A stretch of DNA of 53,945 nt from Oscillospiraceae bacterium (lineage in GTDB: Bacteria > Bacillota > Clostridia > Oscillospirales > Ruminococcaceae). Shown here piece by piece: positions 6,872-53,945 of this stretch. Location: the NCBI GenBank assembly GCA_017545185.1, contig JAFWQJ010000041.1, positions 1 to 53,945 on the forward strand, read 5' to 3'. Position 1 is the first letter of the stretch; every line of letters starts with the position of its first letter. A program made the translations under genes and the position numbers. The notes below the pieces were generated by a model. It saw nothing but the letters and a program-made list of their open reading frames with translations. It searched no databases and was not told the DNA's origin.

Positions 6872-9019
6872 TTGAAAGCAAAACGGTTATGCAGCCTGCT
6901 CCTTGCGGCAGTGCTGCTATGCAGTGCGGCACCGGTCATGCCGGGCGCACCTGCATCCCCTCTCAAGGCTTCCGCAGCGGACGGCAGACTGTATAATCAG
7001 TGGGACGAGCAGTGGAAGGAAGTCACATTCACGAAATACTCCCGCTCCGGCAATTCGCTGTATACGTCGGCGTGCGGCATCTTCTCGTTCTGCAATGCGA
7101 TGTATGCGCTCAACAGCCGCAAGGTCGATGTCGTCGAGCTGGCGACATGGGCGGTCGATATCGGCGCGCTGCGTCCCGGCGCAGGCGGCACCTACCGCGA
7201 TATCCTCTACAAGCATATCGAGGAAAAATGGGGCGCGGAATACGGCTTTACGCTCGGCACGCAGAAGCTCGGCACGGTGCGGGACGAGGAATTCATCGAG
7301 CATCTGAAAAACGGCGGCGTTGCCGTGCTGTATGTGCCGGGGCATTTCATCGCGGTCACCGGCTACGATGAGGTGTATCAGACCTATCATGTCATCGAGA
7401 GCGCAGTCTCGGCGAAGCGCGGACTGGAGCCGGAAGGCTGGGTCACGGCGGACAAGCTCACGAACGGCGGCACGAACGGCACATGGTATGTGCTGATCTC
7501 GAATATCAAAGCACCTGAATACGCAAAAGTCTCCCTGCCCCGGACGCTCTGGGGCGTGGACGAATACATGCGCTATACGCTGGACAGCAACACGCGCAAT
7601 GCGTATACCGTGCGGTTTTATAACGGCGATTCCGATACGCCGCTGGCCGAGCTCCCCGTCGAGCAGAAGTCGCATTCTTCTACGCAGTATCTGGACTGCG
7701 CGCTCAGCTACGCGGGGGATTTCACCGTCGATATCACCGGCGAAAACGAGTTCGGCAAAGTGCAGAGCGAGCGCATCGGCCTGCGCGTTTACGACCGGAA
7801 GGTTTCCGGTGCAAGCCTGAAGCTGCTGACCGATAAGCCCGAATCCGGCAAGCCTGTGCAGTTCCGGACGGCAGGCAGTCCCGCGGCAGGCTATGCGCTG
7901 AAGATCACGGACGGCTCCGGCAGCACGGTCTATGAGAAGGAGATCGCGGACATGCTGGACGGCGAAACGCTGAAAAGCTCCGATGCGGAATGGGTGCCGG
8001 AATATCCCGGCGAGTATGCCTGCACCGCGGCGCTGCACAATGTTTACGGCGAGGCCACGCCCGCGGCCGTGAAGTTCACCGTAAAAGGCGATGTTCCGTT
8101 CACGCTGGATGCAGCAGGCGGCACGCTTGCCGACACGGCGGAATACAAGGCTGCCTACAAGGGAAAATACGGCAGGCTTCCGGTGCCCGTGCGCGACAAT
8201 CACCGCTTTGACGGCTGGTTCACCGCGGCAGAGGGCGGCACGCAGGTCACGGCGGAGACCGTCATGACGCAGACGCAGATGCATACGCTTTATGCGCACT
8301 GGACAAAGGTGCTGGATACCGGTGATATCAACGGCGACCACAGCGTCGATGTGACGGATGTGCAGCTCGCGCTGATCGAATACGTCAAAGTGATGAGCGG
8401 ACAGGCCGCCGCCTTCGATGCGGCACAGAGCAAGGCCGCAGACATCAATAAGGACGGCACCGTCAGCATTGATGATGTGCAGCTCATCCTGAAATATTAC
8501 GTGGAGAACACCGTTGCGAACAAAACGCTCACATGGGAGGAGCTGCTTGCGGAGACGGCCGTCACGACAACAGCTGTCACGACGACCGTGACGACGACAA
8601 CAACTACGGCCGTCACAACAACAGCCAGAACGACGTCCGGACCGGTACAGACCACGACAGGCGTTACCGCGACGGCAAAGCCCGTGTCCACGACAAAGCC
8701 CGTGTCCACGACCGCGAAGCCCGCGGCGACCACTGCAAAGCCCGCGGCGACCACCGCAAAACCCGCGGCAACAACCGCAAAACCCGCGGCAACAACCGCA
8801 AAGCCCGCGGCAACAACCGCAAAACCCGCGGCAACAACCGCAAAGCCCGCGGCGACCACCGCAAAACCCGCGGCGACCACCGCAAAACCCGCGGCGACCA
8901 CCGCAAAACCCGCAGCGACCACCGCAAAGCCCGCAGCTACGACTGTGAAACCCGCGGCGACCACCGCAAAGCCCGCAGCGACCGCCGGAACATCGGCGGC
9001 AGTCACAACCGTATCATAA
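6872..9019 (+). CDS. Secreted C39-like cysteine peptidase with InlB-type repeat, dockerin and Lys-Pro-Ala tail
   Basis: A TTG start at 6872 is chosen because AGGAGG (6853-6858) precedes it and the promoter covers earlier starts. It gives a 715-residue protein with a signal peptide (about 1-36, AKRLCSLLLAAVLLCSAAP). A papain-like C39 domain follows, with Cys68 in YTSACGIFSFC and His158 in VPGHFIAVTGYDE. Next come Ig-like strands (about 215-400) and a Listeria-Bacteroides (InlB B-like) repeat, about 408-480. A type I dockerin (482-548) has two Ca-binding loops, DINGDHSVDV and DINKDGTVSI. A Thr-rich linker and 13 copies of TTAKPAA (one TTVKPAA) end the protein. Dockerins bind cohesins, so it probably joins a cell-surface complex. 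A disordered tail after the dockerin is unusual. Confidence 0.88.
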   Translation: MKAKRLCSLLLAAVLLCSAAPVMPGAPASPLKASAADGRLYNQWDEQWKEVTFTKYSRSGNSLYTSACGIFSFCNAMYALNSRKVDVVELATWAVDIGALRPGAGGTYRDILYKHIEEKWGAEYGFTLGTQKLGTVRDEEFIEHLKNGGVAVLYVPGHFIAVTGYDEVYQTYHVIESAVSAKRGLEPEGWVTADKLTNGGTNGTWYVLISNIKAPEYAKVSLPRTLWGVDEYMRYTLDSNTRNAYTVRFYNGDSDTPLAELPVEQKSHSSTQYLDCALSYAGDFTVDITGENEFGKVQSERIGLRVYDRKVSGASLKLLTDKPESGKPVQFRTAGSPAAGYALKITDGSGSTVYEKEIADMLDGETLKSSDAEWVPEYPGEYACTAALHNVYGEATPAAVKFTVKGDVPFTLDAAGGTLADTAEYKAAYKGKYGRLPVPVRDNHRFDGWFTAAEGGTQVTAETVMTQTQMHTLYAHWTKVLDTGDINGDHSVDVTDVQLALIEYVKVMSGQAAAFDAAQSKAADINKDGTVSIDDVQLILKYYVENTVANKTLTWEELLAETAVTTTAVTTTVTTTTTTAVTTTARTTSGPVQTTTGVTATAKPVSTTKPVSTTAKPAATTAKPAATTAKPAATTAKPAATTAKPAATTAKPAATTAKPAATTAKPAATTAKPAATTAKPAATTAKPAATTVKPAATTAKPAATAGTSAAVTTVS
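8708..8980 (+). repeat. 13 tandem 21-bp coding repeats (TTAKPAA)
   Basis: Thirteen in-frame 21-base units encode TTAKPAA (one reads TTVKPAA). Units differ only at third positions (aag/aaa, gcg/gca, acc/aca), so copy number could change by recombination without a frameshift. Confidence 0.92.
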
Positions 9020-9025
9020 GAAAAT

Positions 9026-9058
9026 GCCCGGAGGCGGGAGACTGCCTTCGGGCTTTTT
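9026..9058 (+). terminator. Intrinsic terminator after the peptidase gene
   Basis: GCCCGGAGGC and GCCTTCGGGC arms are followed by TTTTT. Confidence 0.85.
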
Positions 9059-12969: not shown

Positions 12970-13356
12970 TTGGAACTGCGTGCTGCGGATTGCTCTGCGA
13001 TCAGTTTGATATAAGGTATCCGCTGCGCGGATGCTATTTTGAATGGGGGAAGCAGCCCCGTTCCGGAGGTACTTCCCCCAAGCCCCTATCTTCCCGTGTA
13101 AGAACGCAGGGGAGTTTCGCGCTCTGCGGAGCGCGACGAGGGCGCTGCCATCGACCCGCCAGCTTTTTGAAAAAAGCTGGATCAAAAACTTTTGTGAGGC
13201 TGCAAACGGGAAGCCTGCCGCCCGACCGGCAGCCAAAAGGACGCCGATTATTTGTCAGCGTCCTTTTTTGTTACACATAACGGGGTCTGGGGACTAGTCC
13301 CCAGCGGGAGCTTGAGGGCGGAGCCCTCATTACGGATCATCGCGAAGCGATACCAC
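12970..13356 (-). repeat. Hairpin-mosaic element, copy R2 (with inverted lead modules)
   Basis: Fills the gene-free gap. Read on the minus strand from 13354 it shows module A, B (GAGGGCTCCGCCCTC), C (GGGGACTAGTCCCC), D, a GCTGCCGG segment, an AAAGTTTTTGATCC/AGCTTTTTTCAAAAAGCT segment, and GCGCTCCGCAGAGCGC. At 13015-13035 an inverted copy of module A (GGTATCCGCTGCGCGGATG on the plus strand) ends the 340-bp core like a terminal inverted repeat. It begins three bases after the stop of the minus-strand gene at 13357. Confidence 0.8.
13239..13269. terminator. Bidirectional terminator hairpin (module D of R2)
   Basis: GGACGC-CGA and TCA-GCGTCC arms are flanked by AAAA on the left and TTTTTT on the right. 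It can end the minus-strand heptad-repeat gene and back up the plus-strand terminator at 12930. Confidence 0.75.
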
Positions 13357-15998: not shown

Positions 15999-16072
15999 GG
16001 TATCGCTTTGCGATGATTCCGAATGAGGGATCCGCCCTCATGTTCACACCGGGGACGTATCCCCGGATCCTG
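15999..16072 (+). repeat. Hairpin-mosaic element, short copy R3
   Basis: GGTATCGCTTTGCGATGAT (A, loop changed to TTT), then GAGGGATCCGCCCTC (B) and GGGGACGTATCCCC (C). Module D (terminator) and the later modules are missing. It lies inside the minus-strand MmpL/Pip operon and reads opposite to it. Confidence 0.8.
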
Positions 16073-16136
16073 TATCAATGATTCTGCACAGTTGCGCCGG
16101 CGCGCTTCAGATCAACGCCCGCAGGAGCTGCCCCGC

Positions 16137-18993: not shown

Positions 18994-20868
18994 TTATTCG
19001 GTGATGATCTTTGCGATAAACCGCAGCATCCATGTGAGGTCATCCGGCGTGATCTTGTCATCCTTGTCGCAGTAGGCATTTGCCTTGCCCTGCTCGGAGA
19101 TCACAAGCTTTTTGTCCTCGACGAGCAGTCTTGCGAGCATGACCGCATCCGAAACATCGACGGAGTTGTCGAGGTTGAGGTCGCCGCGCTTCGTGATCGT
19201 AAGCTGCTTGGCGGTCGTGGTCGTCGTGACCGGCTCCGCCGTGGTCGTGACCTTCGGCGTGGTGGTCGTCGCCTTCGGCGTGGTGGTCGTCGCCTTCGGC
19301 GTCGTGGTCGTCGCCTTCGGCGTCGTGGTCGTCGCCTTCGGCGTCGTAGTCGTCGCCTTCGGCGTCGTCGTTGTCGCCTTCGGCGTCGTGGTGGTCGTCG
19401 TAGTTGCGGTGGTTGTGGTCGTAGTGGTGGTAGTAGTCGTTGTTGTGGTAGTTGTCGTTGTTGTGGTAGTTGTCGTTGTCGTGGTTGTAGTCGTGGTCGT
19501 CGTTGTTGTGGTGGTTGTGGTGGTGGTTGTTGTCGTCGTTTCCGGCGTGGTAGTCGTTGTCGTCGTCGTCGTTGTTTCCGGCGTGGTGGTCATCACCGCA
19601 GTCTGCTGCGGGATCTGATAGGTGCGGAACACTGCCTTGCTGTCGTAGTTGTCCGCGCTTTCAAACGCCGGCATCGGCATGATCTGATACGTGATCAGGC
19701 CGCTGCCGTCAATGACGATCCCGTAGAGATACCCGAGTGCCTTTTCCTCCGCCGTCAGCGTATAGACCGTTTCCGCGTCGCCGCCATCCAGCGGCATCGC
19801 CATGATCTTCGTATCCGTGGTATAATAGATCTTCCCGTCATACACATCGGTCACGATATAGCAGGTCGTATACACGGAGCCGTCCGGGGTCGGCCATGCG
19901 GCACGGAGCGTGCGGAGCTTTTCTTTCCCGTCCGCATTGCCCCTGTAAAGATCGGCAACGATCTGCGAAGCGAACTGCACCTTGGTCGGGTCTGCGGCCA
20001 CGGCATAGAGCCATGTGCCGTCCGGCATCGGCTCCAGCGTGTCGATCGCGCCTTTCCAGAATGCATTTTCGTAGGCGTCGGAATCGCAGACGACCGCATT
20101 GCCCTCGGAAAAATAATTCCAGTCCGAAGCACTGTGCTGCCGGTCTGCCTGCATATAATCGTCGCTGCAGAGCATATAGCTGTGCATGGTATGCCCGAGC
20201 ATATCCGGCGCGGAATCGTCAAAGGTCGGGTCGGTGTGATACCAGTGCCCGTCCACTTTGACGACATTCCACATGTGGTTCAGGTCGTCGCTCGTGATCG
20301 AATAGCACGGAATGCCGACCTTTCTGCAGAGCAGGTTCATTGCGAGCGCATAGCCCTGACAGACCGCCGTGCCGCCGAGCAGTGCGGCGTAGGCATCCGA
20401 TTTTTCGTAGGTAAGGTCATATTCGCAGACCTCCGCGAGATAGTCGTGGAAAAACAGCACCTTCTCGGCATCCGACCAGTCCGGATTCACCATGCCGGTG
20501 ATGCGGCCGATCTCCGCATTGAATGTCTCGATCATACCCGGGATCTCAGCCTTGTCGTAGTTATACCGCGGGTTGACCGCCGAGACTCTGCCCGACCACT
20601 GCGATGTATTATACGTAAAGGACGAGCTGACATAGAAATAATCCGATTCCGTATACAGCATCCCGTAGTAGATATCCGCAACATCCTCAAACTTCAGGCG
20701 CAGCGAGGAAATGTCGATCCGGTCCTGCCGTTTCTCCCATGCCGTGCGGATCATCTGCCGCAGCGTGTCCTCCGCGGACGCCGCATAGACCGTGCCCGCC
20801 GGCAGAGCAGAACACAGCATCGCCGCGGAAAGCAGTCCCGCAGCCGTTCTGCGCAGTAATTGTTTCAT
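18994..20868 (-). CDS. Secreted transglutaminase-like protein with Thr-rich linker and C-terminal dockerin
   Basis: 624 residues from the ATG at 20868, which has GGAGGT seven bases upstream; a GTG at 20877 overlaps that site and is unlikely. It has a signal peptide (about 1-30) and a transglutaminase-like catalytic domain. That domain has Cys170 in GGTAVCQGYA, His198 in NHMWNVV and Asp213 in YHTDPTFDD, a complete triad. A beta-rich region (about 260-410) follows, then a linker of more than 60 nearly unbroken Thr and seven TTTTPKA-type repeats. A type I dockerin ends the protein (GDLNLDNSVDVSDAVMLARL ... DKDDKITPDDL). Such proteins act outside the cell as peptidases or crosslinkers and dock on a cohesin scaffold. 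Confidence 0.88.
   Translation of the reverse strand: MKQLLRRTAAGLLSAAMLCSALPAGTVYAASAEDTLRQMIRTAWEKRQDRIDISSLRLKFEDVADIYYGMLYTESDYFYVSSSFTYNTSQWSGRVSAVNPRYNYDKAEIPGMIETFNAEIGRITGMVNPDWSDAEKVLFFHDYLAEVCEYDLTYEKSDAYAALLGGTAVCQGYALAMNLLCRKVGIPCYSITSDDLNHMWNVVKVDGHWYHTDPTFDDSAPDMLGHTMHSYMLCSDDYMQADRQHSASDWNYFSEGNAVVCDSDAYENAFWKGAIDTLEPMPDGTWLYAVAADPTKVQFASQIVADLYRGNADGKEKLRTLRAAWPTPDGSVYTTCYIVTDVYDGKIYYTTDTKIMAMPLDGGDAETVYTLTAEEKALGYLYGIVIDGSGLITYQIMPMPAFESADNYDSKAVFRTYQIPQQTAVMTTTPETTTTTTTTTTPETTTTTTTTTTTTTTTTTTTTTTTTTTTTTTTTTTTTTTTTTTTTATTTTTTTPKATTTTPKATTTTPKATTTTPKATTTTPKATTTTPKATTTTPKVTTTAEPVTTTTTAKQLTITKRGDLNLDNSVDVSDAVMLARLLVEDKKLVISEQGKANAYCDKDDKITPDDLTWMLRFIAKIITE
19213..19592 (-). repeat. 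Thr-rich coding repeats: poly-Thr tract and TTTTPKA units
   Basis: About seven 21-bp units encode TTTTPKA (the last reads PKV), next to a run of Thr codons. Mixed third bases (acc, acg, aca, act) keep the tract from being a simple DNA repeat. Confidence 0.88.
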
Positions 20869-26788: not shown

Positions 26789-27979
26789 ATGACAAATCCA
26801 AACGGACGTTTCGGCATCCACGGCGGACAGTACATTCCGGAAACGCTCATGAATGCCGTCATCGAACTGGAGACCGCATACAACCATTATAAGAACGACC
26901 CCGATTTCAATGCGGAGCTCGAAACACTGTTCAACGAATACGCAAACCGCCCCTCGCGGCTTTATTACGCCGAAAAGCTGACCAAGGCACTCGGCGGCGC
27001 GAAGATCTACTTAAAGCGCGAGGACTTAAACCACACCGGCGCGCATAAGATCAACAATGTGCTCGGTCAGGCGCTGCTCGCGAAGAAAATGGGCAAGACC
27101 CGCCTGATCGCAGAGACAGGCGCAGGTCAGCACGGCGTCGCGACCGCGACGGCAGCGGCACTCATGGGCATGGAATGCGTCGTCTTTATGGGCGAGGAGG
27201 ACACGAAGCGTCAGGCGCTGAACGTCTACCGGATGCGGCTGCTCGGCGCGGAGGTCATCCCGGTGACGACCGGCACGGCGACGCTCAAGGACGCCGTCTC
27301 CGAGGCGATGCGCGAATGGACGAACCGCATCGACGATACGCATTACTGTCTCGGCTCGGTCATGGGACCGCACCCGTTCCCGACGATCGTCCGTGATTTT
27401 CAGGCTGTCATCTCGAAGGAGATCAAACAGCAGATCATGGAAAAGGAAGGCAGGCTGCCGGATGTCGTCATGGCATGTGTCGGCGGCGGCTCCAATGCGA
27501 TCGGCACCTTCTATCATTTTATCCCGGATGAGAGTGTCCGCCTGATCGGCTGCGAGGCCGCAGGCAGAGGCATCGACACGTTCGAGACCGCCGCGACGAT
27601 CAGCACCGGAAAGCTCGGTATTTTCCACGGCATGAAGTCCTACTTCTGCCAGGATGAATACGGCCAGATCGCGCCTGTTTATTCGATCTCCGCCGGCCTT
27701 GACTATCCCGGCGTCGGCCCGGAGCATGCGCATCTGTACGACATCGGCCGTGCGGAGTACGTTCCCGTGACCGATGACGAAGCGGTCAATGCATTTGAAT
27801 TTCTCTCCCGCACGGAGGGCATCATTCCGGCGATTGAATCCGCGCACGCCGTTGCACATGCGCTGAAGATCGCGCCGGAAATGGACAAGGACAAGATCAT
27901 CGTCATCACGATCTCCGGCAGAGGCGACAAGGACTGTGCGGCGATCGCACGGTACAGAGGGGAGGATATCCATGAGTAA
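26789..27979 (+). CDS. trpB: Tryptophan synthase beta chain
   Basis: 396 residues, of usual length. Lys87 in [10 protein letters not shown] is the pyridoxal phosphate Schiff-base residue. [26 protein letters not shown] and [10 protein letters not shown] (phosphate cup) are intact. It joins indole, delivered through the alpha subunit tunnel, with serine. AGGAGG precedes the ATG with normal spacing, stronger than for the other trp genes, which may offset the interrupting YhfC gene. It overlaps trpA by 8 bases. Confidence 0.97.
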
Positions 27980-28748
27980 GATCCGCGATGCATTCAAAAA
28001 CGGCAAGGCGTTTATCCCGTTCATCACCTGCGGCGACCCCGATCTCGAAACGACCGGAAAGATCGTCCGCGAAATGGCGGCGGCAGGCGCAGACCTCATT
28101 GAACTGGGGATCCCGTTCTCCGACCCGACCGCGGAAGGCCCCGTCATTCAGGGCGCGAATATCCGCGCGCTGGCAGGCGGCATCACGACAGACAAGATCT
28201 TCGCATTTGTCAAGGAGCTGCGTAAGGATGTGACCGTACCGCTCGTGTTCATGACCTATGCGAACGTGGTCTTTTCCTACGGTATCGAGCGGTTTGTGAA
28301 GTGCTGTGCGGAGGCAGGCATGGACGGCCTGATCCTGCCGGATGTGCCGTTTGAGGAAAAGGACGAATTTGCGCCGATCTGCAAGGCGAACGGCATTGAT
28401 TTCATTTCGCTGATCGCGCCGACCTCTGAGAACCGCGTCGCGATGATCGCGAAGGAAGCAGAGGGCTTTGTGTATCTTGTATCGAGCCTCGGCGTGACCG
28501 GTATGCGCGCGGAGATCAGAACGGATCTGGAAGCGATCACCGCGAAGATCAAAGAAAACACGGATGTTCCGTGCGCGATCGGCTTCGGTATCTCGACGCC
28601 GGAGCAGGCTGCGGAGCTTGCGGGCTGTGCGGACGGCGTGATCGTCGGCTCGGCGATCGTGAAGCTGATCGCGGAACACGGCAGAGAAGCCGCGGCTCCG
28701 GTCGGCGCCTTTGTCCGCGCGATGAAAAAAGGTATCGCTGCGCGATGA
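27972..28748 (+). CDS. trpA: Tryptophan synthase alpha chain
   Basis: 258 residues. TIM barrel with [55 protein letters not shown] and [12 protein letters not shown]. Glu44 corresponds to the general acid-base Glu49 of the E. coli enzyme. The position of catalytic Asp60 is Glu55 here (TAEGP instead of ADGP), a conservative change I have seen in related Firmicutes. The last residues, GIAAR, and the stop codon TGA (28746-28748) are encoded by module A of repeat copy R4, so the element defines the C-terminus. Confidence 0.95.
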
Positions 28749-29190
28749 TTCAGAATGGGCTTTCAGCCCAAACCTGACCAATGGGACACTGTCCCTTTGG
28801 AATCCCATTATAAAGAGCAAGAGGGTGCTGATGTAACAATCGGCACCCGTTTTGCAAAACGCTGCCGGTCATGCACTTTGCAGCCGGTCTGCATCCATAT
28901 CAAAAGTTTCGGTCAAGCCTTTTCAAAGGCTTGCAGAGTCCAGAGACAGCGTCTCCGGTCGCCGTCCACAGACGGCGAAACTCCCCTATCGTCAGGCGCA
29001 CCGAAAGGGTGAATTCCAAAAACGCTCCGGGGGAGCGTTTTTGAAAGAGGGACGCCCTGTAAGAGAGGGCGTCCCTAAGCGGATTGCAAAGCAATTCGCA
29101 GCGCCCGCAGCACGCAGGAGCGACGCAGTCGCGACGGGTGACCGGGCGTTCCGGGTTCTTAGGGCTGGAAGCCCTAAGTTCTGCTGTGCA
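28731..29190 (+). repeat. Hairpin-mosaic element, long copy R4
   Basis: Module A (28731-28749) overlaps the trpA end. B is GGGCTTTCAGCCC (28757-28769), C is GGGACACTGTCCC (28783-28795) and D is a terminator (28823-28853). A GCTGCCGG segment, an AAAGTTT/CAAGCC segment, and ACGCTCCGGGGGAGCGT follow. Module I is an 11-bp stem with loop GTAAGAG (29048-29076), then comes an AAGCGGATTGC / GCAATTCGC segment, and last AGGGCTGGAAGCCCT. The 494-base gap before the next gene is almost wholly this element. Confidence 0.85.
28823..28853 (+). terminator. Terminator of the trp operon (module D of R4)
   Basis: GGGTGC-TGAT and ATC-GGCACCC arms, then GTTTTG. The T run is short, so termination may be partial. 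Confidence 0.65.
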
Positions 29191-29242
29191 CGCGTGCGCA
29201 TTTGATAAAAGGCACTCAATCAAACAGAAAGAGGTGTTTCAG

Positions 29243-29719
29243 ATGTATCAGAATCAGGACGGCGATTCAACTGTACAGCAAACAATGGAGCAGCGCATCA
29301 TCGGGCGGCTGGAAGAACAGCTCGGATTGAGCGGGCTCGAATCGAACCCCAGTCTCCCGCTGCCGGGCGAACCCGGTGTCCGGATCCGGCCGGATTTCTA
29401 TTCCGCGCAGCATAAGATCATCGGTGAGATCCATTCGCATCTCGGAAAGCTGAAACCGGCGCAGCAGAAAAAAATCGCGGCGGATATCCTCAAGCTGCAC
29501 CTGTTTGACCCGGAGAATGAATATCTGAAAATCATTGCCGTATGCGACGAGGAAGAAAAGAAACAGTTGAAAGGAAACGGCTGGCTTCCGGCAGCGATCC
29601 GGTTATTCAAAATTGAGATCATGCTGATCAACCTGACCGAGCAGGAACGGAACGATCTCCGCGCCGCCATGCGCCGGCAGAATATGCACCCGGAGCAGCC
29701 CGGGGAATCCGCAGAATAA
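29243..29719 (+). CDS. Hypothetical protein, possible PD-(D/E)XK nuclease-like fold
   Basis: 158 residues, start ATG at 29243 after AAAGAGG. I do not recognise a named family. The core VRIRPDFYS, KIIGEIHSHLGKLKPAQ, KIAADILKLHLF and LKIIAVCDEEE follows the order of a PD-(D/E)XK nuclease-like fold (PD, then E-x-H where E-x-K is usual, then a helix and a strand). The replaced Lys argues against normal catalysis. A variable Gln-rich N-terminus and an acidic C-terminus flank it. It is a single gene between element R4 and its own terminator; no promoter was found. Confidence 0.65.
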   Translation: MYQNQDGDSTVQQTMEQRIIGRLEEQLGLSGLESNPSLPLPGEPGVRIRPDFYSAQHKIIGEIHSHLGKLKPAQQKKIAADILKLHLFDPENEYLKIIAVCDEEEKKQLKGNGWLPAAIRLFKIEIMLINLTEQERNDLRAAMRRQNMHPEQPGESAE

Positions 29720-29724
29720 ACAAA

Positions 29725-29755
29725 GGACAGGTGCCGCAGCGCGCCTGTCTTTTTC
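29725..29755 (+). terminator. Intrinsic terminator before pheS
   Basis: GGACAGG and CCTGTC arms with a GC-rich loop, then TTTTTC. Confidence 0.82.
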
Positions 29756-29778
29756 TTGCGCCGATGATTGTGAAAGGC

Positions 29779-29807
29779 TTGACAATCTCACGGATTTGCG
29801 GTATACT
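29779..29807 (+). promoter_or_regulatory. Sigma-A promoter of pheST
   Basis: TTGACA (29779-29784), a 17-base spacer and TATACT (29802-29807), about 47 bases before pheS. There is no T-box between promoter and gene. Confidence 0.88.
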
Positions 29808-29853
29808 ATAGATTGGAGTTTTCCGAAAAATCAAAGAGAGGAAGGTATCGAAT

Positions 29854-30897
29854 ATGGAAGAGCAGATCAAAGCGATGCGGCAAAAGATCGAAGCCGCCGC
29901 TGCCGCCATTACCGATTCCAAAGAAATGTATCAGCTCCGGAAGCAGTACCTTGACAACAAGGCAGGTCAGATCTCCGCGCTGATGAAGAATATGCGCGAT
30001 CTTGCACCGGAGGAGCGTCCGGCGTTCGGCAAGATCGTCAACGAGCTGAAAACATGGGCACTCGATTTCTTTACCGCACAGGATGCCCGCCTGAAGGCTG
30101 CCGAGCTCGCAAAGAAGAACGCAGCCGAGCAGATCGACGTCACGATGCCTGCGCCTGTCCGTTCCTGCGGCGCGCTGCATCCGAATACGCTGATCGCGAA
30201 TGAGCTGATCGGGATTTTCTCCGGCATGGGCTTTGAGATCTACGAAGGCCCCGAGATCGAAACGGATTACTATAACTTTACTGCCCTGAATACGCCGCAG
30301 GATCACCCGGCGCGCGATATGCAGGATACGTTCTATGTATCGCCTGAGCTGCTGCTCAGAACGCAGACCTCCTCCGGTCAGATCCGCTACATGAAGGGCG
30401 ACGACAAGACCCCGAAGCATGAGCCGCCGATCAAGATCCTTTCGCCGGGCAAGGTGTTCCGCTCCGACGACGACGCAACGCATTCCCCGATGTTCTCGCA
30501 GATGGAGGGTCTGGTCGTGGACAAGGGCATCACGCTCTGCGACCTGCAGGGTATGCTGGACGAGTTTGCGCGCAATGTGTTCGGCGAGGGCGTCAAGACC
30601 CGTCTGCGCCCGAGCTACTTCCCGTTCACGGAGCCGTCCGTCGAGGTCGATGTGAGCTGCTTTGAGTGCGGCGGCAAGGGCTGCCGTCTCTGCAAGGACA
30701 CCGGCTGGATCGAGGTGCTCGGTGCGGGCATGGTCAACCGCAAGGTGCTTGAGAACTGCGGCATTGATCCGGATGTGTACACCGGCTTTGCGTTCGGCAT
30801 GGGCATTGAGCGCATCGCCATGCTGAAATACGGCATCCCGAACATCAAGATGCTGTTTGAGTCGGATGTCAGAGTGCTTTCGCAATTCCACGAATAA
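29854..30897 (+). CDS. pheS: Phenylalanyl-tRNA synthetase alpha subunit
   Basis: 347 residues with an N-terminal coiled-coil tRNA-binding part (about 1-85) and a class II catalytic core. Motif 1 area is [19 protein letters not shown], with [16 protein letters not shown] next. Motif 2 area is [17 protein letters not shown], and motif 3 is [18 protein letters not shown] Cys-rich insert ([12 protein letters not shown], about 268-279) lies between motifs 2 and 3 and could bind zinc; it is found in many bacterial PheS. With PheT it forms the alpha2-beta2 enzyme. An AAGAGAGGAAGG tract precedes the ATG. Confidence 0.96.
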
Positions 30898-31068
30898 GCA
30901 GGCTGTGCCTGTCTCCGTTTCACTTCGCCTTTATTTTGCGTTTGATGCTGCACAGTGCGTTTTTCTTTCGGTCGGGGCGGCTTACGTCTCCGTACAGATG
31001 CGCTGCTGATTTTGGGCGGAGCTTTGTGAGAATCCGCAAACGAAATTAAGTGAAAGGAACTAATAACG

Positions 31069-33504
31069 ATGATCGTTCCGTTAAGTTGGTTAAAGGAATA
31101 CGTTGATATTGATGTGACGCCGCAGGAGCTCGAAACGAAGCTCTTTGACTGCGGCTTTGAGGTCGAAACGCTGACCGAGCTCGGCGCAGAGATCTCCGGC
31201 GTTGTGGTCGGTCTGGTCGAACAGTGCGAGCCGATCCCGGAGACACATCTCTCCGTCTGTCAGGTTGACTGCGGCGAGCACGGCAAATTCCAGATCTGCT
31301 GCGGTGCCGATAATGTCAGAGCAGGCGGCAAATATCCCGCCGCGCTGGTCGGTGCGCAGGTCTATGCGACCGCAAGAGACCATGTGACGGTCGAAGGCAC
31401 CATGAAGATCAAGAAGGGCAAACTGAAGGGCTTTGAGTCGCAGGGTATGCTCTGCTCCGGCATCGAGATCGGTCTGAATGAGGATCTCTATCCGGGCGCG
31501 GAATACTGCGGCCTGCTCGTGCTGCCGGACGACGCGCCGGTCGGTGCGGATATCAAGCCGCTGGTCGGCCTCGATGACTGGATGTACGATATTTCGATCA
31601 CGGCAAACCGTCCGGACTGCATGAGCGTGCTCGGCATTGCCCGCGAGGTCGCCGCTGCACTCGGCAAGCCGCTGAAAATGCCGGCTGTGGACTACAAGAC
31701 CGACGGCACGAAGCTGGACGGCTTCAAGGTCACGGTCGAGGACGCAGACCTCTGCCCGCGCTATCAGGCGCATTATGTCCGCAATGTGAAGATCGCGCAG
31801 TCTCCCGCATGGATGCGCCGCCGCCTTGCGCTGGTCGGCATCCGCTCGATTTCGAACATCGTCGATATCACGAACTATGTGCTGAAAGAGATCGGCCAGC
31901 CGATGCACGCGTTCGATCTGCGTCAGCTGGAGGAAAAGCAGATCGTCGTCCGCAGAGCGAAGCAGGACGAAACGATCGTCACGCTGGACGGAAAGGAATT
32001 CAAGCTCAATCCGAACAATCTCGTGATCTGCGACGGCAAAAAGCCGGTCGCACTGGCGGGCATCATGGGCGGCCTCAATTCCGAGATCAAGGACGACACC
32101 GCGGATGTGGTGTTTGAGTCCGCAAAGTTCATGCGCGACAATGTCCGCAAGACCTCCCGTGCGCTCGGCCAGCATTCCGACAGCTCCCAGCGCTTTGAGA
32201 AGGGCGTGGACGAATACGCCACACAGCTCGGCTTAAAGCGTGCGCTGCACCTGATCGAAGAACTCGGCTGCGGCTCCGTGACCGATTCCGGCTTTGCGGA
32301 GGCTGTCTCCGCTGATCCGACCGTCACCCGTCCGCTGACCGTCTCGATCGCGAAGGTCAATGCGCTGCTCGGCATCACTGTGCCGGACGACGAGATCCGC
32401 CGCATTCTGACGAACCTCGATTTCCGGCCGGTGATCGACGGTGACAAGCTCTCCGTGCAGATCCCGCCGTACCGCGAGGATATCGAAAACGCGCCCGACA
32501 TCGCGGAGGAACTGATCCGCATGTACGGCTACGACCACATCACCCCGACCTTCCTTGCAGCCGCATCGGTGACGAACGGCGGCCGCAGCGCAGCACAGAA
32601 CAGTCTGCTGAAATTAAAGCGGACGCTCGCAGCACAGGGTCTTTACGAGGCGATCCACTACTCGTTCTTCTCGCCGAAGGATCTTGACCTGCTGCGCATC
32701 CCGCAGGATGCACCGGAGCGTCAGGCGATCCGCATTCTGAACCCGATCTCCGAGGATCTTTCGATCATGCGCACGATGCTGGCGCCGTCCATGCTGAATG
32801 CGGTGATCCGCAATGTCCGCCGCGGCAATGATGCAGGCGGGCTGTTCGAGGTCGCAAAGACCTATCATTCCGCAGAGGAACACCCGGCGGCAGAGCCGGA
32901 GGAGCGCGAGGCACTGGCAATCGGCCTGTTCGACGGCGGCAGGCTGAGCTTCTTTGACGGCAAGGCTGTGCTCGAAGCACTGGCCGAGGCATTCCGTCTG
33001 ACCTTCACCTACAAAAAGCCGGAAAATCCGGAAAAATATCCGTTCCTGCATCCGGGCATGAGTGCCGTTGTCTCGCTCGGTGACGAGGAGATCGGCTGGG
33101 TCGGTATGCTGGCGCATGACCTGACCGACGCTGAGGTGCCGGAGCACGCAGTCTGCATGGCAGAGCTTGACCTGACCGTGCTGCGTCCGTATCTGAACAA
33201 GCCGGTCGCATTTGAGAACCTGCCGAAGTTCCCGGTCGAACAGCGTGATATCGCGCTGCTGGTCGGTGAGGATGTGATCTGCGCAGATCTCGAAGCCTGC
33301 ATGAAGCGCGCCTGCAAGTCGCTGAACCGTGTGAAGCTGTTTGACGTGTACAAGGGCAAGCAGATCGAAGCAGGCAAGCAGTCGCTGGCATTCTCGCTGT
33401 GGTTCCGCAGCGACGACCATGCGCTGACGGACAAGGAAGTCGATCAGTTCGTCGCGAAGATTCTGAAAAACCTCGCCAAGGACTTTGAAGCGACCCAGCG
33501 TTAA
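31069..33504 (+). CDS. pheT: Phenylalanyl-tRNA synthetase beta subunit
   Basis: 811 residues, full length. The N-terminal tRNA-binding (OB-fold) domain runs about 40-150, then the B3/B4 editing domain (about 205-385; ISNIVDITNYV). The B5 domain (about 405-480) has IPPYREDIENAPDIAEELIR. The core follows, and the C-terminal FDX-ACB domain (about 715-811; FPVEQRDIALLV) binds the anticodon stem. AAAGGAAC precedes the ATG. A gap of 171 bases after pheS holds no recognisable signal, and both genes are probably read from the pheS promoter. Confidence 0.96.
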   Translation: MIVPLSWLKEYVDIDVTPQELETKLFDCGFEVETLTELGAEISGVVVGLVEQCEPIPETHLSVCQVDCGEHGKFQICCGADNVRAGGKYPAALVGAQVYATARDHVTVEGTMKIKKGKLKGFESQGMLCSGIEIGLNEDLYPGAEYCGLLVLPDDAPVGADIKPLVGLDDWMYDISITANRPDCMSVLGIAREVAAALGKPLKMPAVDYKTDGTKLDGFKVTVEDADLCPRYQAHYVRNVKIAQSPAWMRRRLALVGIRSISNIVDITNYVLKEIGQPMHAFDLRQLEEKQIVVRRAKQDETIVTLDGKEFKLNPNNLVICDGKKPVALAGIMGGLNSEIKDDTADVVFESAKFMRDNVRKTSRALGQHSDSSQRFEKGVDEYATQLGLKRALHLIEELGCGSVTDSGFAEAVSADPTVTRPLTVSIAKVNALLGITVPDDEIRRILTNLDFRPVIDGDKLSVQIPPYREDIENAPDIAEELIRMYGYDHITPTFLAAASVTNGGRSAAQNSLLKLKRTLAAQGLYEAIHYSFFSPKDLDLLRIPQDAPERQAIRILNPISEDLSIMRTMLAPSMLNAVIRNVRRGNDAGGLFEVAKTYHSAEEHPAAEPEEREALAIGLFDGGRLSFFDGKAVLEALAEAFRLTFTYKKPENPEKYPFLHPGMSAVVSLGDEEIGWVGMLAHDLTDAEVPEHAVCMAELDLTVLRPYLNKPVAFENLPKFPVEQRDIALLVGEDVICADLEACMKRACKSLNRVKLFDVYKGKQIEAGKQSLAFSLWFRSDDHALTDKEVDQFVAKILKNLAKDFEATQR

Positions 33505-33652
33505 GCGCGGAGCCCGGGCAGGCATTTCCCTCCGGCGGGCGGTGCGCGAACCTCTCCCGGCAGTCAGAACTGCACGCCGCTGAACGCGGCTTCTGCGGCT
33601 TTCATGCTCCCAATACTGAAGCCCGCCGAAAGAGCAGAAAAAATAAATAAAA

Positions 33653-33683
33653 GGGTGCTGATGTAACAATCGGCACCCTTTTT
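33653..33683 (+). terminator. Terminator of pheST (first D hairpin)
   Basis: GGGTGC-TGAT and ATC-GGCACCC arms, then TTTTT. Confidence 0.75.
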
Positions 33684-34077
33684 CGCTGCCGGTCAGGAAC
33701 TTCGCCCCCGGCACACATCCATATCAAAAGTTTCGGTCAAGCCTTTTCAAAGGCTTGCAGGTTCTTAGGGCGAAGCCCTAAGCCGCTCACTGCAGTGAGC
33801 GGAATCCTTTAGCGTCAGGCGCACCGCAAGGGTGAATTTCAAAAACGCTCCGGGGGAGCGTTTTTGAAAGAGGGACGCCCTGTAAGAGAGGGCGTCCCTA
33901 GGCGAATCGCAGAGCGATTCGCAGCGCGTGCTGAACATAGGAGCGACGTCAGTCACGACGAGTGAAGCACGCAGGTTTCCAAAGGGCAAGAGCCCTTTGG
34001 GTCGGCAGTGCCGACAGCCATTTCCCTCCGGAGGCGGTGCGCGAACCTCTCCCGATACTGAAATAGATCGAAAGCAC

Positions 34078-34115
34078 AAAAAGGACGCTGATTCACTCAC
34101 ATCAGCGTCCTTTTT
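34078..34115. terminator. Bidirectional terminator between pheT and nadE
   Basis: AAAAA-GGACGCTGA and TCAGCGTCC-TTTTT around a 10-base loop: a perfect 9-bp stem that works from both sides of the convergent genes. Confidence 0.85.
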
Positions 34116-34148
34116 CTGTATGTATCGGCTTTCTGTGCGCTTCCCGCA

Positions 34149-34895
34149 TTACTCCGCACACGGGTCAAACGGGAATGCCGGCATCATCTTGAGCTTAAAG
34201 AGATTCTGCTTATGCTTGCGGTCGATGAGCGCCTTTTTCTCCGGGGCGGGCTCAATGCCCTCGCGGAGATAGAGATCGAGCTCCGCGTAGGTAAACCCGA
34301 GGTTATCCTCATCCGTTTTGCCGCAGAGACCGTCCGACGGTGCCTTATCGACGAGCTGTACCGGAAGACCGAGTGCTCTGCCGATCGCCTTGACCTCGGT
34401 GACGGTGAAATTCGCGAGCGGTGCAAAATCGCCGACGCTGTCGCCCCAGCGCGTGGAGTAGCCGACCCAGTCCTCGGAGAAATTGCAGGTGTTAGCAACT
34501 CTGCCGTTGACGCTCTGGGAAACGGCGTAGACCGTTGTCATGCGGATGCGCGGCGGCAGATTGGTCGTCGCCTGCACGGAGAGCGGCAGGGACGCCGCGA
34601 CGGCGCGTTCCAGCGCATCGGCAGCCTCGCCGATGTTCACTGTCACATTGGTGATGCCGAGGTGCTTGCAGAGCAGCCTGGAATCGTCGATATCGGGCTG
34701 CTCGCCGCGGGGCATCAGCACGCCGACGACTCTGTGTACGCCGAGCGCCCTGCAGAGCAGCGCCGCACAGACAGAGCTGTCCTTTCCGCCGGAGACGCCG
34801 AGGACAGCCTTGCAGCCGTCGCCGTTTTCGGCGAACCAGTCCTGGATCCAGCGGCAGCAATCCTCAATCGCGCGGTCAACATCAAAACGGTACAT
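34149..34895 (-). CDS. nadE: Ammonia-dependent NAD+ synthetase
   Basis: 248 residues. The N-type pyrophosphatase loop SGGKDSSVCA (about 35-44), RMTTVYAVSQ, NTCNFSEDWVGYSTRWGDSVGDFAPLANFT-like signature (given in parts) and PSDGLCGKTDEDNLGFTY are all present. It converts deamido-NAD to NAD with ammonia; no glutaminase domain is attached. The ATG at 34895 (MYRFDV) is nine bases from the AAAGG site; an ATG at 34904 lies against that site. It ends the long minus-strand run that begins at yqfC, 39 bases after the CPBP protease gene. Confidence 0.93.
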   Translation of the reverse strand: MYRFDVDRAIEDCCRWIQDWFAENGDGCKAVLGVSGGKDSSVCAALLCRALGVHRVVGVLMPRGEQPDIDDSRLLCKHLGITNVTVNIGEAADALERAVAASLPLSVQATTNLPPRIRMTTVYAVSQSVNGRVANTCNFSEDWVGYSTRWGDSVGDFAPLANFTVTEVKAIGRALGLPVQLVDKAPSDGLCGKTDEDNLGFTYAELDLYLREGIEPAPEKKALIDRKHKQNLFKLKMMPAFPFDPCAE

Positions 34896-44301: not shown

Positions 44302-45453
44302 TTATTTCACAAAAATTTCACTTGTTTTCCCGATAACCCCTTCAAAAACATAGTTGATTTTCAGCATAATGCCCAAATCTGTCCGGTTAAATTTTTCATC
44401 TCTGCTGATAATTATATCATTTGCATGGAAATTGTGCTCAAAGCGCACAGCGGATTCCTCCAGCAGAGCCCTTGCTTCCTCCTCGGAAAAGACGGTGACG
44501 GCGGTGTCCTGCACGGTATAGATTCTGTGTATCAGCTGGAAGGGCAGCCGCTTTCCGAAAAGGATCAGCGGGGTGCGGGTCTCATCGCAGCGGGTGAGCG
44601 GCGCATCCGGCACGCGGAACCCGATGCCGAGCGGCAGCTCCTGCCCGAGGACTGCAAGCAGCGTCTGCGTTTTCACCTCGCTGCTGACGGGCAGCTCCGC
44701 GACGAACGGCTGCTCTTTGGTGAACACCGCCGGATAGCGTGCAGTGACGGTGCCGTCCGCATGATAACAGCGGCTGATGCCGCAGGGATCGGCCTGCACG
44801 CCGGAAATGAGCAGGTCGCCGGGTCTGACGAGATCGCCGGCCTGTACGCGGGGAAAGCCGCAGCGCACGTTCATGCTGACGATCTCTGCGGGCACATCGG
44901 CAATGATGTTGCAGGGCATCCGGTCATGCTTCATATCCGGCGGGGGCGTTTCCTCGGTCAGATCGACGATGAGCCTGCCGCCCTCCTGCCGCACGGTGAT
45001 CCATTCGATGTCGCTGACGGCAAGGCGCATCCGCTGTTCGAGCCAGTTATACTGTATGCTGCGGAACGGCACGCCCTCCGTGACGCCGAGATTTTCGAGC
45101 GCGGCGCGCAGCTCGGATTCGGGGATGCGGCCGTTCCCGGTGATGCATATTTCGCGGACGGTCGCGCCGCAGGTATAGAGAAGCAGCATCCCGCAGAGCA
45201 GACCCGCGGCAAAGCCGTACCGTCTGCGGTAGGGCATCAGCGGAAAGCGGAGCCCGCGCCGTTCGGTGATCACGAGCTGTATGCGGTATTCGTCCGCGAG
45301 TGCGGAGAGCCGTTTTTCGTTTTTTGCAGCGGTATCGGCATAGAACACGCTGCCGCGGATCTGCTGATTTTTGCAGGCGATCCCGCGGAACCGCATTGCA
45401 TCGCGGAACGCAGAAAGCCGCCCGCCGGACGCCGAAAAGCTGATAACGGCCAT
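44302..45453 (-). CDS. yqfD: Sporulation protein YqfD
   Basis: 383 residues. GGAGG at 45459-45463 places the start at 45453 (MAVISFSA). It has an N-terminal cytoplasmic domain (about 1-85), a single membrane helix (about 88-105; YGFAAGLLCGMLLLYTCG) and a large outer region. That region begins VREICITGNGRIPESEL, a POTRA-like pattern, with MNVRCGFPRVQAGDLVRPGDLLISG later. YqfD is needed in the mother cell at engulfment in Bacillus. Between it and yqfC stands repeat copy R6, an interruption of a normally tight pair. Confidence 0.88.
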   Translation of the reverse strand: MAVISFSASGGRLSAFRDAMRFRGIACKNQQIRGSVFYADTAAKNEKRLSALADEYRIQLVITERRGLRFPLMPYRRRYGFAAGLLCGMLLLYTCGATVREICITGNGRIPESELRAALENLGVTEGVPFRSIQYNWLEQRMRLAVSDIEWITVRQEGGRLIVDLTEETPPPDMKHDRMPCNIIADVPAEIVSMNVRCGFPRVQAGDLVRPGDLLISGVQADPCGISRCYHADGTVTARYPAVFTKEQPFVAELPVSSEVKTQTLLAVLGQELPLGIGFRVPDAPLTRCDETRTPLILFGKRLPFQLIHRIYTVQDTAVTVFSEEEARALLEESAVRFEHNFHANDIIISRDEKFNRTDLGIMLKINYVFEGVIGKTSEIFVK

Positions 45454-45474
45454 GGGAACCTCCTGAGTGCTTTC

Positions 45475-45924
45475 ATGTCGGGCGCAGGATATATACAGAA
45501 GCCGCTTTCGCGGCATGAGGTACAAGACTGTCGGGCGCCCCGACCAAAGGGCTCCCGCCCTTTGGAAACCTGCACGCCCGGTCACTCGTCGCGACTGCGT
45601 CGCTCCTACGTGCTGCGGGCGCTGCGGATTGCTCTGCAATCCGCTTGGAATAAGGTATCCGCTTCGCGGATGCTATTTCAGAATGGGAGCCGCTCTTACC
45701 GGCTCCCAAGCCCTTCGTGCGCTTGAACGCGAGGGGAATTTCGCGCTCTGCGGAGCGCGACAAGGGCTCCGCCCTTAATCCGCAAACTTTTGAAAAAGTT
45801 TGATCAAAACTTTTATTTTTGCCCGACCGGTTACGCCCCCTTTATCCACATAACGGGGTCTGGGGACTGGTCCCCAGCGGGGGCTTGGGGGCAGCGCCCC
45901 CATTTCTGATGCATCGCAGATACC
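45475..45924 (-). repeat. Hairpin-mosaic element, copy R6, within the yqfC-yqfD operon
   Basis: Fills the gap between two genes of one operon. On the minus strand it starts at the last base of the yqfC stop (TAG then GTATC). B is GGGGGCGCTGCCCCC and C is GGGGACCAGTCCCC. Then come AAAGTTTTGATCAAACTTT, GCGCTCCGCAGAGCGC, a GTAAGAG-loop stem (45685-45707) and an inverted copy of A (GGTATCCGCTTCGCGGATG on the plus strand, 45654-45672). The terminator module D has been lost: between C and the GGTCGGGC segment only GGATAAAGGGGGCG remains. Confidence 0.85.
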
Positions 45925-46151
45925 TACAACCCTCCGTCGTATTCGAGGGCGCAGATGCGGCCGGAGACATGAAGGCCGCCGTCGGCGTAATCGGACGCAG
46001 TCAGCCCGTGCCCCCAGACGGCGACCCTGTGCCCGCCGGTCTCAACAAGCACGAGCATCTCGCTGCATTCGAGCAGCCGTCTGCACCGGTCAAAGAAAAT
46101 ATCCGTATTGCCGCACAGTTCAATGCGGTCGTCAAACAGCGGCATCCGCAT
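45924..46151 (-). CDS. yqfC: Sporulation protein YqfC (YabP/YqfC family)
   Basis: 75 residues, short for the family. The pattern RIELCGNTDIFFDRCRRLLE, VETGGHRVAVWGHGLTASDY and DGGLHVSGRICALEY fits YabP/YqfC beta-strand proteins (L-x-G near the start, G-x-x-L, and V-x-G-x-I near the end). Its position before yqfD and opposite ylbJ supports the call. GAAGGGAG stands before the ATG at 46151. The stop TAG (45926-45924) shares its last G with element R6. Members localise at the forespore and help spore formation. Confidence 0.82.
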   Translation of the reverse strand: MRMPLFDDRIELCGNTDIFFDRCRRLLECSEMLVLVETGGHRVAVWGHGLTASDYADGGLHVSGRICALEYDGGL

Positions 46152-52557: not shown

Positions 52558-53757
52558 ATGAGACAGAAGGACAATCTGCTGATCCCCGCGATGCTGGACG
52601 CGCATTTTCCGCTGATGAAATATGCGTTTTATTCGCGGCAGTATCAGCCCGTGATCCTGAACAACCGGCGGGATGTGACGGAGCTCGGCCTGCGCTGGGT
52701 GCATAATGACATGTGCTATCCGTGCATCCTGAACACCGGCCAGATGCTCGGCGCGCTGCGGAGCGGCCGGTTTGACCTGAACCATACGAAGCTGCTGATG
52801 CCGACGGTCGGCGACGCGTGCCGCGGCTCGAATTACGCCGATCTGATCCGCCGTGCGGTGCAGCTTGCGGGCTATCCGCAGGTGCGTGTCCTGACGATGA
52901 ATCTGCGGCATATTGATGACGAAAACCAGCTTCCGATTACGCCGAAAATGGTCTGGCGGGCGCTGTTCAGCCTGTATTACGGCGATCTACTGATGCTGCT
53001 GGTACAGCAGGTGCGGCCGTATGAACGCCGCCGCGGTGATACGGCGCGTCTGCGCGATCACTGGTACGGCGTGCTCGGTGCGGAGCTGCGCGATTTCCGG
53101 AATCTGCGCATTTCGGTATTGAAGCAGCGGTTCAAAGAGATCACGCGGGCATTCGCGGAGATACCGAGAAAGGCGGAAAAGAAGCAGCGCATCGGCATTG
53201 TCGGCGATCTGTATACGCGGTACTGCAGCCTCGGCAACTGGGATATTGTTGATTATCTGGAGCAGTCCGGCTGCGAGAGCTTCACGGACGGCCTTTCGTG
53301 GTATGTGCTGTACTATATTGATTCGCATCTGCGGAAGGTGAACCCTGCGGAGGCGGCGGTTTACCGCATTGCGGAGAAGGTGCTCTCGCATCTGCAGGAC
53401 GAGATGATCGCCGCACTGGAAGCGGAGGGCTTTTTCACGCTGCCCCGTCTGCAGACGCTGAAAGCGGAGGCGAAGGGCATTGTCAGCCATGAAGTCGCGA
53501 TCGGCGACGGCTGGCTGATCGGTGCGGAGGTCGCTGGTTATATCCGGCACGGGTGCAGGAAGGTGCTTGCGATCCAGCCGTTCGGGTGCATGGCGAATCA
53601 TGTGGCAGGCCGCGGGATCTATGCGTCGATCCAGCGGAAGTGCGGCGGCGCGGTCGTCAGTGCGGATGTGGACGCCAGCGGAACGCCGGTGAATGTCTAT
53701 AACCGTGCCCGAATGCTGATCGACCTGTCCGAAGACCTGCTTTCCCGGAGTATCTAA
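52558..53757 (+). CDS. 2-hydroxyacyl-CoA dehydratase D-like protein (activase-associated, stand-alone)
   Basis: 399 residues. The family signatures are LMPTVGDACRGSNYADL (about 80-97), KQRIGIVGDLYTRYC, LIGAEVAGYI and IQPFGCMANHVAGRG (about 340-354), with Cys residues that could hold an Fe-S cluster. In related bacteria this domain is found joined to, or beside, an ASKHA-type ATPase activator (CoA-substrate enzyme activase). Here it stands alone after the lipoprotein gene. GGGAGAGG precedes the ATG at 52558. Its stop TAA at 53755-53757 abuts repeat R7. Whether it is active without an activase encoded elsewhere is open. Confidence 0.8.
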   Translation: MRQKDNLLIPAMLDAHFPLMKYAFYSRQYQPVILNNRRDVTELGLRWVHNDMCYPCILNTGQMLGALRSGRFDLNHTKLLMPTVGDACRGSNYADLIRRAVQLAGYPQVRVLTMNLRHIDDENQLPITPKMVWRALFSLYYGDLLMLLVQQVRPYERRRGDTARLRDHWYGVLGAELRDFRNLRISVLKQRFKEITRAFAEIPRKAEKKQRIGIVGDLYTRYCSLGNWDIVDYLEQSGCESFTDGLSWYVLYYIDSHLRKVNPAEAAVYRIAEKVLSHLQDEMIAALEAEGFFTLPRLQTLKAEAKGIVSHEVAIGDGWLIGAEVAGYIRHGCRKVLAIQPFGCMANHVAGRGIYASIQRKCGGAVVSADVDASGTPVNVYNRARMLIDLSEDLLSRSI

Positions 53758-53945
53758 GGTATCGCTTCGCGATGATCTATAATGGGCTCCGCCCAAACCC
53801 GCCAAAGGGACACTGTCCCTTTGGAATCCTATTATAAAGAACAAGAGGGTGCTGACGTTACAGTCGGCACCCTTTTTCGCTGCCGGTCAGGCACTTCGCA
53901 TCCGGCACACATCCATATCAAAAGTTTTGATCAAACTTTTTCAAA
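53758..53945 (+). repeat. Hairpin-mosaic element, copy R7 (runs off the window)
   Basis: Starts on the base after a TAA stop. A is GGTATCGCTTCGCGATGAT, B is GGGCTCCGCCC and C is CCAAAGGGACACTGTCCC with TTTGG on its right arm. D is a terminator (53847-53876), then come GCTGCCGGTCAGGC and CAAAAGTTTTGATCAAAC. The right end lies outside the window. Confidence 0.85.
53847..53876 (+). terminator. Intrinsic terminator (module D of R7)
   Basis: GGGTGC-TGA and TC-GGCACCC arms followed by TTTTT. Confidence 0.8.

Follow-up and report, generated by a model that had tools for sequence, protein, structure and literature searches.

The window, a stretch of 53,945 nt, is an entire contig of a 3.6 Mb draft genome (94 contigs, ~95% complete; G000 below) and carries arrays of short hairpins whose core has four slots, A to D. 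R1, a covariance model of this A–B–C–D core built from 17 copies, finds seven copies in the window. All seven places in 54 kb at which a preliminary description had located a hairpin family are real and matched by R1, and the stems quoted there are present; two of these places, 13015 and 45475–45790, belong to arrays with A ends at 13354 (−) and 45924 (−), of which they represent the far halves.

The first core lies on the plus strand at 2990–3112 (R1 110 bits), at distance 0 from the stop of the gene 2252–2989, with hairpin A at 2993–3005, C at 3040–3057 and a terminator-form D with a T-run at 3081–3105. The second, on the minus strand at 13232–13354 (111 bits), begins 2 nt past the stop of a minus-strand gene at 13357 and comprises A (13339–13351), B (13313–13329), C (13287–13304) and D (13239–13263). 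Facing it on the plus strand is the far half of the array (13015–13231), featuring an A2 end module of the form ATCCGC-tgc-GCGGAT (13018–13032), the hairpin TCGCGCTC (13117–13136) and a hairpin F (13159–13180); the repeat families D16, D17 and D19 pair this 13015–13354 array with 45621–45910. A decayed plus-strand copy, retaining A, B and C with no D terminator, occupies 15999–16087 (46.7 bits); among the window copies with an A slot, it alone is not preceded by a same-strand stop.

The core at 28731–28855 (+; 109 bits) overlaps the end of trpA, whose TGA stop lies inside module A. Its hairpins are A (28734–28746), B (28756–28770), C (28778–28800, one mismatch) and D (28823–28848), the last with only four T behind it. 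Further plus-strand hairpins, with matches elsewhere in the genome, follow at 28900–29190, namely F (28914–28933), TCGCCGTC (28959–28978), CAAAAACGCTCC (29017–29043), AGGGACGCCCT (29048–29076) and CTTAGGGCT (29158–29178). Directly 3′ of the stop of the gene 31069–33504, which has PheT-type domains, an array of a second type, P, provides an alternative start (GCGCGGAGCCCG..GGCATTTCCCTCCGG; 33505–33685, +) and leads to a terminator-form D at 33653–33678; the R1 match here (33582–33685, +) is in effect the D half. Beyond it, 33738–34115 (no strand assigned) holds hairpin modules common with 28914–29125 (repeat family D7, 89%) and ends in a bidirectional terminator (34078–34115) facing a minus-strand gene at 34149.

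The minus-strand core at 45791–45924 (49.6 bits) has an A variant, GGTATCTGCGATGCATC, C at 45860–45877, B at 45886–45902 and no D. It sits behind the TAG of a minus-strand 75-aa ORF (45924–46151), the end of which is conserved in the related genomes G021, G004, G025 and G003, and its plus-strand far half (45475–45790) holds hairpins at 45544–45565, 45624–45644, 45684–45708 and 45741–45760 and an A2 module at 45657–45671. The last core (53758–53879, +; 111 bits) directly follows the stop of the gene 52558–53757, with A at 53761–53773, B at 53783–53795, C at 53802–53824 and D at 53847–53872. RNA folds of four window copies have z-scores of −5.9, −7.1, −2.6 and −5.4.

Copy number, phyletic spread and architecture

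Across the whole genome, scoring 150 of the 1588 candidates from a first look, R1 returns at least 134 matches with E ≤ 1e-3, and DNA searches with two of the window arrays return 58 and 65. We compared 61 draft genomes in all, 30 in the genus (G000 included) and 31 outside it. R1 matches occur in 27 of the 30 genus genomes, with 14 of these 27 having at least 40 each (with no more than 59 candidates of any genome scored), and in 5 of the 31 others, with 1 to 3 each. The hairpin-array family is essentially genus-wide and, at the sensitivity of R1, not clearly broader. The preliminary description had presented a dispersed, modular and covarying family and had proposed a covariance-model search; that search, run on the genome and its relatives, found more than 100 copies and confirms the family on a larger scale than was claimed. 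Its remark that no named family fits also stands, in that Rfam has no match in the window at the gathering threshold, and at E ≤ 1 the seven loci give one weak match only (18.5 bits, cut-off 40). In the literature on repeats of this kind outside subscription journals, we found no title describing such a family. In the genome, 61 sites, some of them clearly fortuitous, match the pattern GGTATCN{5,11}GATRN{4,11}AATG, compared to 0 for the reversed pattern, which excludes a chance origin of the array pattern.

In sense orientation, the stop codon is followed in turn by GGT, hairpin A, AATG, hairpin B, AAACCCCGC, hairpin C, CCCGTTATG and D. The A stem is most often ATCGC-ttc-GCGAT, with GTC-tcc-GAC, GCC-tcc-GGC, ATC-tgc-GAT and others also seen; B is of the GGGGC-tcc-GCCCC type; the C stem is CTGGGGAC..GTCCCCAG or CCAAAGGGAC..GTCCCTTTGG; and D consists of GGACGC or GGGTGC and the partner arm, followed by a T-run. 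Beyond D, further hairpins often occupy the space up to the next gene, which is most often convergent. In several arrays a second GGTATC end behind D faces that convergent gene, and the GGTATC.. ends A1 and A2 point towards each other across about 330 bp. The P type starts with GCGCGG-agc-CCGCGC and may be joined to A, as in the array at L349. P elements (GGCATTTCCCTCCGG with a GC-rich hairpin), sometimes in tandem, were observed at 33505–33600 of the window, at L004, L041, L085 and L348 and at other loci.

We counted loops and terminators in the first 74 matches of G000 and 30 of the 34 of the sister genome G021, of which 104 copies were left once duplicates had been removed. By a strict pattern, 13 of these 104 have a palindrome starting ACATGAAGAAAC, of the ACATGAAGAAACTTGTTTCTTCATGT kind, nested between B and C. 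At one and the same site, such a palindrome may be found in one sister genome and be missing from the other (L091:1501–1649, L099:1501–1651, L005 and L271), with 4 of 23 site pairs differing. Loop inversion, considered as a mark of template switching, proved weak and was not relied on: slot C has ACT 17 times and AGT 3 times, ATT 20 times and AAT twice, and among the loops listed for A and B, none is reverse-complementary to another common one.

Anchoring of the arrays to stop codons

The copies are not free-floating; the A end lies at stop codons, which gives them an orientation. The preliminary description missed this anchoring, as well as the terminator and the likeness to REPs and BIMEs. 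With genes called by codon usage, 61 of 81 copies in G000 and 27 of 34 in G021 start between −35 and +10 of a same-strand stop, the 81 being what remains of 82 R1 matches after one 36-nt fragment was dropped. Among the 76 of these 81 with both flanking genes called, 59 are anchored, compared to 6.5 expected with random position and strand in the same spacer. R1 starts at A, and these figures cover only copies with an A-like slot. Because codon-usage calls miss genes, such as the 75-aa ORF at 45924–46151, we added a test based on ORFs only. By this test, 70 of 81 copies in G000, 30 of 34 in G021 and 23 of 28 in other species are anchored, compared to 170 of 1120 random positions (a background of 15%); the 28 are the stronger of 54 matches. 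Two of them are identical (G009, L135:925–1050; G004, L136:1501–1626), which may reflect a recent transfer or cross-contamination. A further relative, G018, showed weaker anchoring (10 of 16 copies), with several copies near contig ends.

The commonest distances from stop to array in G000 are 0, 2 and 4; at a distance of −18, the reading frame continues into A and is closed by the TGA there. The C-terminus of trpA (27936–28757; L190) is encoded by the array in this manner, and the tail of the G021 trpA comes from a different A hairpin. About 13 of the 46 matches to the P pattern were read as lying directly behind stops, including that behind the gene ending at 33504, and a looser count (ORF stop within 60 nt) gave 23 of 46 compared to 248 of 1080 random positions. 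Of the 76 copies, 48 lie between convergent genes and 23 between co-directional ones, with the remaining classes contributing 4 and 1; the single copy is the one between divergent genes. The array behind the gene 52558–53757 is present in G000 and G021 and was not seen behind its orthologs in G025 and G003, so that gain or loss of arrays takes place inside the genus.

This distribution also bears on the notion of neutral or selfish palindromes that spread in non-coding DNA and abut stops only because coding sequence blocks them. The arrays do fill their spacers (median 440 bp), nested insertions such as the ACATGAAGAAACTTGTTTCTTCATGT-kind palindrome occur in them, and some arrays, as at trpA, replace gene C-termini. 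Against it, anchored arrays start at a defined hairpin, be it A or P, rather than at random points, spacers between divergent genes are nearly free of them, and D retains both its terminator form and its wobble bias (see below). We regard this account as rather unlikely, if the most serious of the competing ones.

Covariation, the putative terminator D and a probable exchange of hairpins

In an alignment of 82 copies from G000 fitted to R1, 97.0% of the stem cells pair, compared to 86.3% after shuffling, and both sides change in 23 of the 25 pairs. Cells changed on both sides number 193, compared to 48.0 in shuffled and 12–22 in slid alignments; the shuffles leave relatedness in, and the copies are interdependent. 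The earlier observation that stems change together with pairing kept is thus upheld. It had been attributed to selection on RNA or single-stranded DNA, and selection on RNA would be expected to leave more G-U than A-C on the sense strand. In helix D, a nearly constant U-G pair (66 vs. 4) set aside, G-U indeed outnumbers A-C by 39 to 14 (p = 0.0008). Helices A (9 vs. 3), B (5 vs. 2) and C (2 vs. 3) have no significant bias, either singly or pooled (16 vs. 8, p = 0.15), and the excess for A to D together without the constant column (55 vs. 22, p = 0.0002) comes mostly from D. These counts are from 72 of 82 rows of G000 and 30 of 34 of G021, in covariance-model alignments that lean to their own structure and may favour G-U. 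Counts from a hairpin finder on the best 72 G000 and 30 G021 matches by score were set aside, the one before D (66 vs. 9) being dominated by the U-G pair of D and the one beyond D (31 vs. 57) being mixed with stems arising by chance in coding sequence. By this measure, RNA selection is indicated for D, and A, B and C speak clearly neither for nor against it.

D is best read as a transcribed intrinsic terminator, for which a wobble bias is expected. It has the corresponding form: of 70 parsed D hairpins, 60 are followed by a stretch of 8 nt containing five or more T. The D at 28820–28857 folds at −18.8 kcal/mol (z −4.8) and that at 13228–13262 with a z of −2.5, on a fragment too short at its 5′ end. 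A simple terminator scan of 28600–34300 found 7 sites, compared to 6.0 in shuffles, and D was not among them.

We then compared the arrays behind 23 orthologous gene ends of G000 and G021, where the upstream identity is 92.9–98.9% (median 96.0), with one at 82.8%. The 23 came from 30 G021 sites tried, 7 of which had no G000 counterpart; the set leans to sites with an array in G000, and the G000 loci L041 and L171 enter it twice. Excluding slots unreadable in one partner, slot types agree in 13 of 19 cases for A, 7 of 17 for B, 13 of 18 for C and 13 of 20 for D, compared to fractions of 0.41, 0.34, 0.41 and 0.44 in random cross-genome pairs. At 45440–46010, a whole stretch of the array is swapped for another module set in G021 with both flanks kept, and the F hairpin is altered on both arms. 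Among the 20-mers that differ between the arrays of G000 and their G021 orthologs, 1718 of 5002 (34%) are found at other sampled loci of G000, compared to 0 of 5353 in a coding control, although such sharing is partly expected of any repeat family. Across the 104 copies of G000 and G021, the types of neighbouring slots are associated for B and C (p = 0.0005), C and D (p = 0.0185) and B and D (p = 0.018; all uncorrected), and no association of A with B, C or D was found, a pattern that short exchange tracts would yield.

More distant genomes point in the same direction. The G018 sample comprised 15 stretches with 16 elements, among the best-listed of at least 59 matches. The stem CTCAAGGGAC is found in all 15 C hairpins that could be read, one of them mismatched in the other arm, and the D hairpins, 16 of 16, belong to a CCGCC..GGCGG type, with a wobble pair in a few; C hairpins of the TCAAGGG/TTAAGGG type account for 5 of 88 in G000 and G021. 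Other species have yet other D hairpins, with some copies having no visible D. Slots thus tend to persist, while the sequences filling them appear to be replaced species by species. Given the whole-hairpin replacement at orthologous sites and the C and D types peculiar to G018, many of the changes affecting both arms look like exchanged cassettes, and much of the covariation looks like the product of cassette exchange and concerted evolution. As a source of covariation, selection on RNA or single-stranded DNA, as first proposed, is only partly supported for the same reasons.

The strict form of that proposal is a single structured RNA or single-stranded DNA in which every stem is selected and the copies diverged through compensatory point mutations. 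The paired changes and near-complete pairing, the pooled G-U excess and the persistence of hairpins in their slots across species despite different sequences are all compatible with it. Yet whole hairpins are replaced where the upstream coding divergence is only ~4%, the stems fall into few discrete types, and the wobble excess does not extend significantly to A, B and C. Moreover, at L343 and its G021 ortholog, the two flanks of the B hairpin are complementary (GAAATGGGGC..GCCCCATTTC), the 3′ one having been rewritten to match the 5′ one, with a matched change on both arms between the two genomes; this rewritten flank fits template switching of the kind described in the parts of PMC8794818 available to us. 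We therefore consider compensatory divergence of one structured element unlikely. Strong stem covariation among dispersed repeats can stem from cassette exchange rather than from independent compensation, and this warrants caution wherever such covariation is met.

The draft state of the genomes raises the question of repeats misjoined in contigs. Contigs do break in arrays: the window ends at 53945 inside the 53758 array, L359, L362, L364 and L369 end in or near others, and several G018 copies lie near contig ends; the arrays probably fragment the draft assemblies of this genus. Assembly error could lie behind some single swaps. As a general explanation, it is extremely improbable, since one slot order is common to numerous draft genomes, the genes on either side of a swap can both be syntenic (45440–46010), and other swaps affect A, a few nucleotides from unique coding DNA; A, and usually D, lies within a short read of such DNA.

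Relation to known repeats and possible roles

Taken together, we favour, with a probability of about 0.6, the reading that the arrays form a BIME-like mosaic cassette at gene 3′ ends. Hairpin A starts some 3–7 nt past the stop of the upstream gene, or module A sometimes provides the stop itself, with hairpins B and C and then D, an intrinsic terminator in form, following. Cassettes would be replaced by homologous exchange (gene conversion) among the more than 100 copies with no dedicated transposase, and paired-arm changes, arising from template switching or compensation, would then spread as parts of cassettes. The anchoring, the orientation, the slot order, the terminator form of D, the replacement at orthologous sites and the species-specific slots of one relative are observed directly; we infer the exchange itself from the pattern.

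Concerning mobility, the Y1 transposase domain (Y1_Tnp, PF01797) has no match in G000, whereas 5 of 14 control genomes are positive; in the genus, 3 of 30 genomes are positive, G021 not being one of them. Mobilization by a RAYT is accordingly not supported. Searches of phage, plasmid and viral sequences gave no array match, and the exact A-module pattern has none in viral_contigs; thus, an origin from such elements was set aside. A MITE or a remnant of an insertion sequence, moved by a transposase, might account for the facing A1 and A2 ends and for the presence or absence of an array behind orthologous genes. However, the inner parts are exchanged, unlike those of a MITE, no target-site duplication or parent element was established, and neither the mobile-element searches nor the Y1 counts (Y1 being the only transposase family searched) favour this origin, which we hold to be very unlikely.

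The favoured cassette reading places the arrays beside the E. coli BIMEs and REPs (PUs). Like these, as far as the portions of the literature available to us describe them, they are high-copy composite extragenic palindromes, some of which lie close behind stop codons: 446 of 4,072 E. coli REPs are within 15 nt of a stop (PMC12306157, in part), and 260 of 496 in ref. 17 of that paper. High-copy extragenic palindromes in mosaics are what we found, with at least 134 R1 matches, partly independent slots and joins of A to P. Unlike BIMEs and REPs, the arrays have a fixed slot order from stop codon to terminator with a hairpin proper to each slot, their stems differ between species, and no RAYT-type gene was found. 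Among the A starts listed (GGTATC, GGTGTC, GGTGCC and similar), there is no consistent GTAG (or CGTC) tag. Since neither the GTAG tag nor a RAYT association was found, we file the arrays as working like BIMEs and not as members of a REP or REPIN family. A stop-proximal, BIME-like arrangement is thereby extended to a clostridial genus in which no Y1 transposase was found in 27 of 30 genomes.

Three other systems invite comparison, each judged from partial texts. The CGTC-tagged REPs of PMC3733652 are likewise palindromic repeats with no dedicated transposase, but are simple hairpins from five phyla that, in the sections available, do not include Bacillota, whereas the arrays here are composites of several hairpins. 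Template switching in RNA hairpins (PMC8794818) is a mechanism that alters both arms together and perfects or extends stems; it is known there from the histories of RNA genes, whereas we are dealing with a dispersed intergenic family that appears to exchange parts between its copies. The stem-loop repeat families of PMC2267715 are similarly intergenic repeats with a common predicted stem-loop, from a survey of 40 genomes in the main text of which the string "ruminococc" is absent.

As to function, D would terminate the transcript, and B and C might protect the RNA 3′ end from exonucleases. In the parts of the sources available to us, REPs are hypothesized to serve termination and mRNA stabilization (PMC3733652), and those less than 16 nt from a stop reportedly reduce translation and cause ribosomes to stall (PMC12306157, citing its ref. 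17). By analogy with such stop-proximal REPs of E. coli (up to 15 nt away), A may slow ribosomes at the end of translation; this effect, suggested by the position of A, is the least certain step, and we put it forward tentatively. If D is efficient, transcription of the upstream gene would not extend to the hairpins beyond it, and a function in the RNA therefore leaves the far half of the arrays unexplained.

On a broader and similarly tentative view, the arrays may constitute a genus-wide set of interchangeable 3′-end parts, i.e., a stop-codon hairpin acting on the end of translation, shielding hairpins and a terminator. Recombination alone would move these parts between unrelated genes, such that the genome would rewrite its 3′ UTRs in concert and covariation would arise at the level of the slot rather than of the base pair. 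Natural modular 3′-UTR parts of this sort occur in many copies in each genome and turn over rapidly; sister strains with different parts behind the same gene could therefore serve to compare what stop-proximal hairpins and terminators do. As a separate observation, the window has tandem repeats, mostly of a 21-nt period, inside called genes at 8631–9050 and 19195–19587.
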